From assembly GCF_029581195.1 (NCBI RefSeq), contig NZ_CP120737.1, positions 2,232,001 through 2,296,000 on the forward strand: a DNA stretch of 64,000 bases. The letters run 5' to 3'. Below, piece by piece: positions 11,146 to 14,544 of this stretch. The notes beneath the pieces were generated by a model, which had not been told where the DNA came from, did not search any database, and saw only the letters and a program-made list of their open reading frames with translations. This DNA comes from Solwaraspora sp. WMMD791. Lineage in GTDB: Bacteria > Actinomycetota > Actinomycetes > Mycobacteriales > Micromonosporaceae. The position numbers were made by a program, and so were the translations under genes. Every line of letters begins with the position of its first letter. The stretch's first letter is position 1.

Positions 11146-12039
11146 ATGGCGGAATCCACCTCACCCACTGTGGAGGCAGACGTGCCCAAGGTCGTCGGTC
11201 CAACCATCCCGCGCTGGCAGCTCGGCGAGGAGCTCACCCGCCTACGCCGCGCCGCCAACCTCACCGAGGCAGACGTCGCCGACAAACTCGGCTGCTCCGA
11301 GTCGAAGATCAAGAAGGTCGAGGCCGGCTACGTCGGCACCAACCGCGCCGAACTGCTGGTCATGCTCGACATGTACGGCGTCACCGACGAGGCCGCCCGC
11401 AACGACATGATCGAGCTGCAGAAGCGCGGCAAGGAGCGCGGCTGGTGGTCCAAGTTCGGCATGGTGCCCCAGCAGTTCGCGACCTTCCTCAGCCTGGAGT
11501 CCTCGGCAACCAGCATCCGCGTCTTCGAGCCGCTGATGGTCCACGGGCTCCTGCAGACCGAGGACTACACCCGCGCGATCGTCTCGACGCATACGCCTGG
11601 GCTCACGCCGGATGAGATCGAACGGCAGGTGCAGATCCGCCGCGCCCGCCAAGAGCGGATCTTCGCGGACCCGCCGCAGACCTGGATCATCCTCGACGAG
11701 GCGGTCCTGCACCGCCGGGTCGGCGGCACCGACGCCATGCGCGCCCAGCTCACCCACATCCTCGACACCGTCAAGGCCAACCGTTGGCTCACCCTCCAGG
11801 TCGTCCCGTACAGCCACGGCAGCTACCCCGGTGAGCTCGGCGCGTTCACGATCTTCGACTTCGAGGAGGACATCCACTCCCCCGTCGTCTACGTGGAAGG
11901 TCAGGCCGGCGGCCTCTATCTCGAACGTGACGCGGACCTGCGCCGGTGTAACCTGGCGTACAACCACATCACGGCCGCCGCGCTCAGCCCACCCGAGAGC
12001 GCCAAGCTGATCACCGCCCTGACCCGCGCCACGGGTTGA
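11146..12039 (+). CDS. XRE-family regulator with DUF5753
   Basis: A 297-aa protein. A helix-turn-helix of the XRE type lies at about 25-80 (LRRAANLTEADVADKLGCSE), followed by the DUF5753 domain (about 105-290) with FEPLMVHGLLQTEDYTRA, VVPYSHGSYPGELGAF and VVYVEGQAGG. Proteins of this kind are abundant in Streptomyces and Micromonospora and are paired with DUF397 proteins (Scr1/BldB-type modules), where they influence differentiation or act like antitoxin regulators. The DUF397 gene follows within 20 bp. It provides an intact comparison for the broken copy at 39195-39897. Confidence 0.88.
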   Translation: MAESTSPTVEADVPKVVGPTIPRWQLGEELTRLRRAANLTEADVADKLGCSESKIKKVEAGYVGTNRAELLVMLDMYGVTDEAARNDMIELQKRGKERGWWSKFGMVPQQFATFLSLESSATSIRVFEPLMVHGLLQTEDYTRAIVSTHTPGLTPDEIERQVQIRRARQERIFADPPQTWIILDEAVLHRRVGGTDAMRAQLTHILDTVKANRWLTLQVVPYSHGSYPGELGAFTIFDFEEDIHSPVVYVEGQAGGLYLERDADLRRCNLAYNHITAAALSPPESAKLITALTRATG

Positions 12040-12056
12040 CCGACGAGGAGCAGCAC

Positions 12057-12266
12057 GTGACCCCCGACCTCGACCTCAGCACTGCCGTCTGGCGCAAGAG
12101 CAGGAAGTCATCCACGAACGGTGGCTGCGTCGAGGTCGCCAACCTGGGTCAGGCGTACGCGCTCCGCGACTCCAAGAACCCGGACGGCCCGGTCCTCATC
12201 TTCACCCCAGAGGAGTGGGACTGCTTCCTCGACGGCGCAGAAAAGGGCGAGTTCCGCCAACTCTGA
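12057..12266 (+). CDS. DUF397 protein
   Basis: A 69-aa DUF397 protein with the family signatures WRKSRKSSTNGGCVEV, ALRDSKNPDGPVL and FTPEEWDCFL. Such small proteins are partners of the DUF5753 regulator encoded just upstream. The GTG at 12057 follows GACGAGGAG at good spacing and is preferred to an ATG-like start at 12036 that would overlap the regulator. The gene is in the same operon. Confidence 0.85.
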   Translation: MTPDLDLSTAVWRKSRKSSTNGGCVEVANLGQAYALRDSKNPDGPVLIFTPEEWDCFLDGAEKGEFRQL

Positions 12267-12355
12267 CCTACTTCCGTAGGCCCCAGGGACACCGAGGTCA
12301 TCACCGGTTCTGGCGGATGGACACTCAGAGAAACATATCGATGTAGCTTGCCTCG

Positions 12356-12673
12356 CTACAACAAGCCCTCATCGATTTGAACGCAGTCCGACACTAGTTC
12401 TTGCAGCTCAAATGCGATAGCCATGATTCGCTCCCCAACTTCCCCAGCATATGAATTCGAGTTCGATTCGGTTGCCGGAAATATGTCGACTAGTATGTTG
12501 ACACCCAGTCGTGGGATAGCATCAAGATTCGCCCAAGCCGAGGCACATGCCCCAAGAGCGGACTTGAGCGACTCCAACGCCGACTCATCTAGCCCACGGT
12601 TCATTCGAAGCGAAAGATCGAACTCCTTCCAGGAGTCAGCCAGAAACTGCAATTCCTGCGAGACAATGATCAC
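12356..12673 (-). CDS. candidate immunity protein for RHS toxin tip
   Basis: A 105-aa acidic, helical protein of no family I recognise. The GTG at 12673 has GGAGG 6-7 nt upstream and overlaps the TGA of the preceding toxin fragment as GTGA, so it is translationally coupled to it. In polymorphic toxin loci the immunity gene sits exactly here, directly after the toxin tip. The gene and its surroundings are clearly lower in GC than the flanks, which suggests transfer. Its role as an immunity protein is inferred from position, size and coupling only. Confidence 0.6.
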   Translation of the reverse strand: MIIVSQELQFLADSWKEFDLSLRMNRGLDESALESLKSALGACASAWANLDAIPRLGVNILVDIFPATESNSNSYAGEVGERIMAIAFELQELVSDCVQIDEGLL

Positions 12674-13481
12674 GATGGACCTCCAACGACCCAAGAGATT
12701 GCATCGGCGGGCACCCGACCCGTCAGTAGCACCTCTCCGGAAGATTTAGCTCTATTGATTGCAGTAAAACCTTTGATGCCATGCTGCGCCCGCCCCGCGT
12801 CAGTGGATAGATCGAAAACGCCACCTGAAACCTTGTCAAGATCAATCCTAACCATACGCCCCGATGACCATTGATCTGCGGCAGCCAAACTTCTCGTGGT
12901 GGAAATGTACTGCGATCGCCAGTTGGCTCGACTCCCGTTCAGCACATGTCCGGCCGGCGTGTACGTCGCACCTGGGTTCTTCGCAACCAGACCATCCGCT
13001 GGATCCTCATCCGGTCGCAGATTTCGATAGACGAAATCACCTTCGCCCTGGTCCGGAACACTGCCGGTGGCGCCCTGGACCGGGCGGTGGCTTCGCTGGC
13101 GTCCCGGCGGCTGGTCGCCGCGTCGAAGCCGGGCTCGGCGACACCGGTCGGGGTGGTCGGGACCGCCGGGTCGTGCGGCTGGTACGGCGGCAGGGTGCCG
13201 GCTGCCTGCTCGGCAACCCGACCGGCACCGCCGTCGGCGTCGGTCGCGTCTGCCGGGACGTGATGGTCACCGGTGAACGGTGCCGGTCCGGCCATCGCCG
13301 GCGCACCGAGCGCGGCCGCCGCAGCCGACCACAGGGGACGTTTCGAGGCCCATGACCAGAGCCAGGAGACCGGCCAATTGTCGGCCGGTACGGCACCGGC
13401 CGGCACGGCGACGGTCAGCCCGAACAGCAGCAGCGTGACGATGGCGATCCGCCGGGACGCACGACCGATGGCACGGCGCAT
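12670..13481 (-). pseudogene. RHS polymorphic toxin with core deleted
   Basis: From the ATG at 13481 (GGGGGAGGG upstream) the frame encodes a signal peptide, then PADNW, HHVPADATDADG, GTLPPYQPH and GFDAATSRRDASEAT, the typical N-terminus of a secreted actinobacterial RHS/YD-repeat protein. Near 13060-13085 this stops making sense. A different frame, open to the stop at 12670, gives FVYRNLRPDEDPADGLVAK, NPGATYTPAGHV, YISTTRSL and RIDLDKVSGGVFDLST. That is the ADP-ribosyltransferase-like toxin tip found at the C-terminus of many RHS proteins. The roughly 1500-2000-residue repeat core is gone and the fusion is out of frame, so the protein is dead. The candidate immunity gene follows with a 4-bp overlap. 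Confidence 0.7.
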
Positions 13482-13657
13482 GGCCGCCCTCCCCCGTGTA
13501 CCGAAAACTGTCCGACATCGATCATGCCGACGTCGGACAGTCTCCGATGGCACAAGCGGAGCGCACAAGCATCCGTACGGAGGGTTGACCACACATCGCC
13601 GTCGGCGATTTAATCCCCGGCTCAGCCGATGGCTCGGTCCCCGACTGAGTCCTCAGC

Positions 13658-14233
13658 TCAGTCATCGGCCGGAGCACCGACCGCCGCGTCCACCAGTTCC
13701 CGGACCCGCTGCTGCAGCGCCGCATCGTCGGTTTCGGTCACCACGGTCACGTTGCCGGCGTCGACCGCCGCCGATCCATCGTCGACCAGTACGAAGCTGG
13801 CCTGCGGGTGCCGGGCGGCGTCGCGGACCGTCGCCGCCACCGGCCCCTCACCCACCGCGAGAATCAGCTCACACCCGCTGCCGGCGAGGCTGGCGAGATA
13901 GCTCGCCGCGTTGTCGGCGGTCTGCGGGCCGTCCACTTCGAGGAACTGCACTCTGGCTCGCGTCTGCAGCGACGACTCCTGCATCGCGGTCCATACCGGC
14001 GCGGCGGCCGGGTCGGTCACCCCGGCCGCGCCGGTGAGCAGGCACACGGTGACGTCCCGGTACTCGCGGGCGCGGGGCTCAGCCGGATCGTTCGGCCACA
14101 GCGCCGCCACCAGCACCGCCAGAACGACGACGACCAGCGCGGCAATGACAGCGAGTAGTACGATCCGGGCCCGCCGTCCACTGAGGCGACCCGGTGTCGG
14201 CTGGCGGTCTCGACCGCCCACACGCTTCGGCAC
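13658..14233 (-). CDS. membrane-anchored periplasmic-binding-like protein
   Basis: A 191-aa protein starting at a GTG. Basic N-terminus, one membrane helix (about 23-47), then an extracytoplasmic domain with alternating strands and helices (VTVCLLTGAAGV, ASYLASLAGSGCELILAVGE, ASFVLVDDG). The pattern resembles half of a BMP/PnrA-like solute-binding fold but is too short for a full two-lobe protein. A role in ligand sensing is possible. No partner genes are adjacent. Confidence 0.55.
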   Translation of the reverse strand: MPKRVGGRDRQPTPGRLSGRRARIVLLAVIAALVVVVLAVLVAALWPNDPAEPRAREYRDVTVCLLTGAAGVTDPAAAPVWTAMQESSLQTRARVQFLEVDGPQTADNAASYLASLAGSGCELILAVGEGPVAATVRDAARHPQASFVLVDDGSAAVDAGNVTVVTETDDAALQQRVRELVDAAVGAPADD

Positions 14234-14544
14234 GGTCGCACCCTACCCGTCGGCAACCGCCGCTCCGCCGCACTGCTGCCGGTGTGGCACCGTAGGCGCA
14301 GGCCAGGCGGTCAGCGGTGATGGGCCACCGCTGAGATTAGAACCAGGCTACGCTCCAGGACGTTGGAGTTGACGGAATTGATTCTTCATTGGATTCCAGA
14401 CACTTCGTGACGCGACCTAGAAGTTGCACTTTGCGCGGGAGCCGAGTTTCTCCTACCGCATTTCTCAATTCAGAGTCATGTGGATGAGTCTGGGGCGAAA
14501 TAGCCGTTTGTTGATTGATATTCGAGCCATGGCGGCGAGTCTGC
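14234..14544. other. gene-free, lower-GC stretch
   Basis: No supported gene. From about 14330 to 14525 the base composition drops well below the flanks, as in the RHS remnant nearby. The open frames there lack ribosome sites and domain motifs. It looks like residue of an insertion or deletion event. Confidence 0.4.

Follow-up and report, generated by a model that had tools for sequence, protein, structure and literature searches.

We present a probably disarmed RHS locus in Solwaraspora sp. WMMD791, in which a loss of about 10 kb appears to have left the two ends of a large toxin gene joined out of frame, together with an orphan immunity gene, a state known from one assembly. The locus lies in a window of 64,000 nucleotides, bases 2232001-2296000 of a 6.93 Mb genome that is assembled as one contig with 100% completeness. 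The following features of the window bear on this reading:

11146..12268, plus strand: downstream flank, comprising an HTH_31/DUF5753 gene and a DUF397 gene (Pfam; the conserved DNA ends at 12268)
12356..12673, minus strand: intact immunity-type gene, with a GTG start in a GTGA overlap with the TGA of the tip (ORF reading and homologues)
12670..13076, minus strand: ART-like (RhsF-CT/DUF7587-like) toxin tip in the other frame, open (Pfam, profile and ORF reading)
12939..13481, minus strand: the frame as it now reads, about 134 native and about 45 frame-shifted codons, with the stop ending at 12939 (ORF reading)
13077..13080, no strand: 5' edge of the deletion, where identity to all four relatives stops (blastn and base-level comparison)
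13078..13481, minus strand: 5' remnant of the RHS gene, about 134 codons, with a signal-peptide-like start recognized by eye (identity to the N-termini of relatives)
13658..14233, minus strand: upstream flanking gene, within the segment 13077-14282 that matches the congener G006 at 93.7%

The ATG at 13481 on the minus strand and the TGA of the tip ending at 12670 are both exact. The chromosomal place is shared with relatives: by blastn, the window DNA matches four of them up to 12268 and then again from 13077 (from 13081 in G005), and the downstream flank is present at 95-96% in five of the six congeners. We searched for the N-terminal part in 121 genomes, namely the source genome, where it is single-copy, and 120 relatives, and recovered matches in 30 of these, the source included. 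In four of the six congeners (G006, G003, G001 and G005) the matches sit in open frames of approximately 3600 codons, which from the matched start measure 3566, 3576, 3590 and 3580 amino acids respectively, with amino acid identities over residues 1-135 of 95%, 86%, 84% and 83% in the same order; against G006 the nucleotide identity is 96% over 402 nucleotides. The orthologue from G003, the one of the four that was scanned with Pfam, contains RHS repeats, three Laminin_G_3 stretches and a PT-HINT domain. The HINT ends at codons 3445-3457 in the orthologues, and by eye the ends of all four differ after a common HINT motif. A preliminary description made from the window alone had read the first 130-140 residues as an RHS N-terminus with a signal peptide and had advised looking for the full gene in relatives; the match of residues 1-135 to RHS N-termini and the signal-peptide-like start agree with this reading, and relatives do have a single long RHS gene at the same place. 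The contrary possibility raised there, that the two parts match two separate intact genes in relatives, is not what the relatives display, and an origin from two unrelated neighbouring genes is ruled out, since the N-terminal part heads a long RHS frame at the same locus in four congeners. Codon differences between the N-terminal part and G006 amount to 6 synonymous and 6 replacement changes over 134 codons, as against 4 and 5 for the pair G001-G005 and 27-32 and 18-27 for more distant pairs; these counts permit no statement on relaxed selection. Separately, G006 has the repeat matches of a second RHS gene (C1:3429296-3435511, minus strand, in an ORF of 3429 amino acids), which starts about 8 kb past the stop of the first, on the opposite strand.

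From the window copy, about 10 kb of the RHS core is gone. By coordinate subtraction, the interval from the N-terminal end to the flank is 12.6 kb in G006, 15.2 kb in G003, 12.9 kb in G001 and 11.2 kb in G005, as opposed to 0.8 kb here, and codon 135 to the end of the HINT in the orthologues spans about 10 kb. Pfam searches with both pieces detected neither RHS/YD repeats nor a HINT domain between 12670 and 13481, and hence the window copy is a remnant rather than a working RHS toxin. The deletion of the whole repeat core was thus correctly recognized from the window alone; the size put on it, a full gene 5-6 kb longer, was too small, given the roughly 10 kb that are missing and intact relatives of 3566-3590 amino acids. 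A relocation of the core within the same genome was rejected, as no long copy was found: the core DNA of G006 (9841 bases) gave as its best match 97 bp at 78%, with 40 of 1674 first-look candidates scored, and a core/HINT piece of G003 (233 amino acids) gave two distant matches of 33 and 39% identity in ORFs of 734 and 2293 amino acids. RHS-repeat matches in the source genome number eight (118 of 118 candidates scored), the two listed being in ORFs of 2293 and 2130 amino acids; the six congeners have 10, 45, 55, 57, 81 and 108 such matches, scoring having been limited to 150 candidates per genome.

At the junction, the blastn alignments end at 13077 in three relatives and at 13081 in G005, DNA identity to the relatives reaches 13080, and the G+C fraction drops from about 0.77 to 0.48-0.60. 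This places the join within the range 13060-13085 given in the preliminary description, which had also put the two ends in different frames; the frame of the tip is indeed distinct and is open back to 13266, such that both frames are open around the junction. The same description had suggested looking for short repeats at the deletion ends. A search of 12000-13700 detected none in direct orientation at the junction. A single 12/13-base repeat lies nearby but is weak, since 18 of 1049 background tiles contain a comparable one. We accordingly rejected deletion between long direct repeats, and likewise the copying of junction DNA from the core, for which matches have 2 or 3 mismatches at best. 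These observations also bear on the idea that a large repetitive gene was collapsed in assembly. RHS genes are long and repetitive, which lends that idea some plausibility; we nonetheless regard it as highly improbable, given the absence from 12000-13700 of a direct repeat at the junction, the weakness of the nearby one, of a type seen in 18 of 1049 tiles, the single copy of both the N-terminal part and the tip in the genome, and the one contig at 100% completeness. None of the remnants contains a stop in its own frame; hence, the loss may be of recent date, and the immunity gene may owe its survival only to youth.

The open state of both frames around the junction is likewise what synthesis of a compact, functional two-part toxin through frameshifting would require. 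No slippery heptamer of the type X XXY YYZ was found in the scanned stretch where both frames are open, and programmed frameshifting was rejected on this ground. In known RHS systems the core serves delivery, which further argues against a compact toxin. Matches to the N-terminus outside the source genome in ORFs shorter than 1500 amino acids number eight, and among the seven inspected (G008:C540, of 1329 amino acids, was left out) there is no clear fusion of an N-terminus with a tip. Two of these (G007 and G103) resemble long RHS genes broken up between frames, contig ends truncate another two (G065 and G064), in one (G039) the frame closes after 1266 amino acids, and two (G054 and G069) are weak, have internal stops and look unrelated. 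Taken together, we find such a frameshifted toxin scarcely credible. In G007, a one-contig genome of another genus, the N-terminus family heads a long RHS-like stretch distributed over three frames (C1:659000-672000), a split that could be due either to sequencing errors or to a pseudogene.

A profile of seven tip sequences matched PDB 9zdm_B, an RHS ART tip, with an E-value of 8.8e-15. The tip alone matched DUF7587 at 9.1e-05, below the curated cut-off of Pfam, and of the seven aligned tip sequences five reach DUF7587 at E <= 0.1. From these sequence relationships the tip is probably an RhsF-type ART, in keeping with the ART-like nature earlier ascribed to the last ~110 residues. The RhsF-CT of Chromobacterium violaceum, in the available text of PMC13324451, is an ART that modifies RNA in vitro, and its toxicity requires R1403, Y1456 and E1497. 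In an alignment counted by eye, the arginine (in VYR) and glutamate (in EVL) are conserved in the window tip, whose residue at the place of the tyrosine is a tryptophan; homologous tips have W, F or Y at that place of the R-Y-E triad. The tip is single-copy in its own genome and has six homologues in other genomes: the set of 121 genomes gave one in G034 and two in G086, and a draw of 397 genomes from the order gave those of G233, G366 and G273, and G086 again. Against the six congeners there was no match at E <= 0.001. That the tip has RHS homologues, which the preliminary description had made a point of its reading, holds for three of the six, which end long RHS-type ORFs (2093 amino acids in G233, 1523 in G366 and 3595 in G034); the first two contain RHS repeats by Pfam, and the third has an RHS-type N-terminus and a HINT-like stretch, the latter seen by eye. 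The tip of G273 is preceded by a HINT-like stretch that is cut by a contig end, and the matches in both G034 and G273 are weak (E 4.3e-4 and 7.1e-4). The two tips of G086, in short ORFs next to contig ends, are uninformative on RHS membership. Both G086 contigs stop about 30 bases past these similar tips; their final bases are nearly identical and open an immunity-like start. Repeated RHS loci that broke the assembly may be the cause.

The codon for the arginine of the tip lies at 13026-13024. Upstream of it there is no in-frame ATG, GTG, TTG or CTG in a frame that is open back to 13266; the most upstream candidate start is a CTG at 13020, past the arginine codon, and the first common start is a GTG at 12945. 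Since a product begun at any such codon would lack the catalytic arginine, and a delivery core is absent as well, the ART toxin is, judging from its sequence, very probably dead.

Directly after the tip, and beyond what the preliminary description had noticed, follows an immunity-type gene running from 12673 to 12356, whose GTG start at 12673 overlaps the TGA of the tip (GTGA) and is preceded by a GGAGGT motif resembling a ribosome site; its frame is intact to 12356. A homologue in G233 (43% over 91 amino acids, E 1.5e-26) stands in an ATGA overlap directly after the homologous tip. No homologue was found at the tip loci of G366, G273 and G034, and therefore the pairing of this immunity family with the tip family is complete at only one other locus, that of G233. 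Searches of PDB, Pfam and NCBIfam gave no relative of the gene. Given its intact frame and a homologue in the immunity position at one other locus, it is probably an orphan immunity gene. Homologues are present in three of 250 genomes of the family: its own, G001 (64%) and G483 (53%). In G483 there is no tip match genome-wide at E <= 0.1, and the 17 kb analysed at the homologue contain no RHS match. In G001 the homologue lies about 0.9 kb past the stop of the full RHS gene, which has a different tip, and no remnant of an ART tip was found before it; the only two tip matches of that genome are partial, have an internal stop and lie elsewhere (E 0.009 and 0.07), and were taken as chance.

Across seven species of the genus, this locus comprises four full genes, two internally deleted copies and one case, G002, that has the upstream flank and lacks both a match to the N-terminal part and a full match to the downstream flank. 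The second deleted copy, in G004, retains the downstream flank at 96%. Compared with G006, its RHS gene lacks two internal segments, of 672 and 4458 bases. Each of these lengths is a multiple of three, and the larger deletion has a 9-base repeat (CGACGCCGG) at its ends. There is also a frame change near codon 655; the HINT end, the tip and an immunity-type gene are retained. The tip and the following immunity gene of G004 (C1:3693900-3705000, minus strand) form one open frame with no stop between them. An orphan immunity-type gene of 253 amino acids, 93% identical to the post-tip gene of G004, lies about 0.8-1.56 kb past the RHS stop in G006. Its homology with G004 begins about 25 codons before the immunity start, near the 3' end of the tip, and this leading stretch looks like a remnant of a displaced tip.

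The ART tip and its immunity gene could have been a displaced orphan pair in the array behind another, main tip, in which case a larger deletion would have taken the core, the main tip and the immunity gene of the latter. The orphan gene of the same immunity type 0.9 kb past the RHS stop in G001 is in line with this. However, the G001 copy has no tip remnant, and the homology of the G006 orphan starts only near the 3' end of the tip, whereas the window tip is whole; we hold this course of events to be unlikely. Equally doubtful, in our view, is a failed tip exchange, in which an incoming tip-immunity cassette was joined illegitimately to codon ~134 and replaced the core, the HINT and the resident tip. 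About 15-18 codons of the retained tip precede VYR, by eye nearly the HINT-to-VYR spacing of G034 and G273, which would put the join near a natural cassette edge and thereby keeps the exchange alive. The absence of any HINT remnant at this 3' join and of tip matches at E <= 0.001 in all six congeners points in the same direction, and illegitimate recombination is proposed for effector displacement in the available text of Kirchberger et al. (PMC5361080). Nevertheless, linker lengths vary, so that the edge is uncertain by several codons, and one deletion accounts for the same DNA. That the tip is the resident gene's own last one, rather than a displaced orphan or an incoming tip, is not proven.

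We favor a single loss as the probable history of the locus. A gene of the LamG-RHS-HINT type would have been shortened by about 10 kb, from codon ~134 to the beginning of the ART tip, leaving a toxin with neither a start that includes its catalytic arginine nor a core to deliver it, and a secreted-looking N-terminal stub as an idle by-product. The immunity gene, which the loss would have brought from more than 10 kb to about 0.8 kb from the old RHS start codon, would still be expressed from the old locus and would shield the cell against relatives deploying the same ART tip. The locus would thereby have shifted from a weapon with its shield to a shield only. The immunity gene may, on the other hand, simply not have decayed yet and have survived in the absence of selection. 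More tentatively, and with little confidence, we suggest that the RHS locus of the genus repeatedly loses its core by deletion while immunity genes stay under selection. Cells would thereby be spared the cost of a 10-kb weapon and retain the shield, which would come to lie beside the old start region, with the join falling, in the present case, near the boundary of HINT and tip, the natural cassette edge.

This type of decay is known. Jackson et al. 2009 (PMC2935791) describe, in the text available, variable tips on a conserved core, displaced tip fragments that mostly lack a start codon, and frameshifted relics, and the window locus resembles these in its variable tip on what was a conserved core, its start-less tip fragment and its frameshifted state. 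The Serratia fragments described there consist of part of the core with a tip and lie downstream of a full gene, whereas here the N-terminus and a whole tip are left at a locus that has neither a core nor a full gene. As in the orphan immunity arrays that Kirchberger et al. 2017 (PMC5361080) report in the sections available, an immunity gene has outlived its toxin; in those arrays a new effector displaces the toxin, whereas the window locus has no working effector left. The orphan rhs-CT/rhsI modules of Poole et al. 2011 (PMC3150448), so far as the accessible account goes, are likewise pairs of tip and immunity gene without the remainder, but the window tip is in addition joined out of frame to the old N-terminus. 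With RhsF-CT/RhsFi (PMC13324451, available portion; PDB 9zdm) the locus shares the ART family of the tip, the aligned R and E, and an immunity partner; RhsF is delivered by a T6SS in a Gram-negative bacterium, whereas the window tip has a tryptophan at the tyrosine position and cannot be started whole. A PDB profile search revealed no relation between RhsFi and the window immunity gene. In the literature searched, we found no identical core-deleted RHS locus with a retained immunity gene. What is particular here is that the entire core is lost while both ends are left, with intact orthologues at the same place. The locus thus offers a putative step from weapon to shield whose before-state is preserved in sister species at the same locus, along with a second congener, G004, that has different deletions. 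With the window and G004, one can ask in a testable way if immunity genes persist beyond delivery cores at a rate above chance. Moreover, ART tips of the RhsF type, and an immunity family without a PDB relative, are now placed in actinomycete RHS loci.

Beyond the conserved upstream segment lies an intergenic patch, 14283-14544, with a G+C fraction of about 0.5 and no blastn match in G006, which has about 710 unmatched bases there instead.
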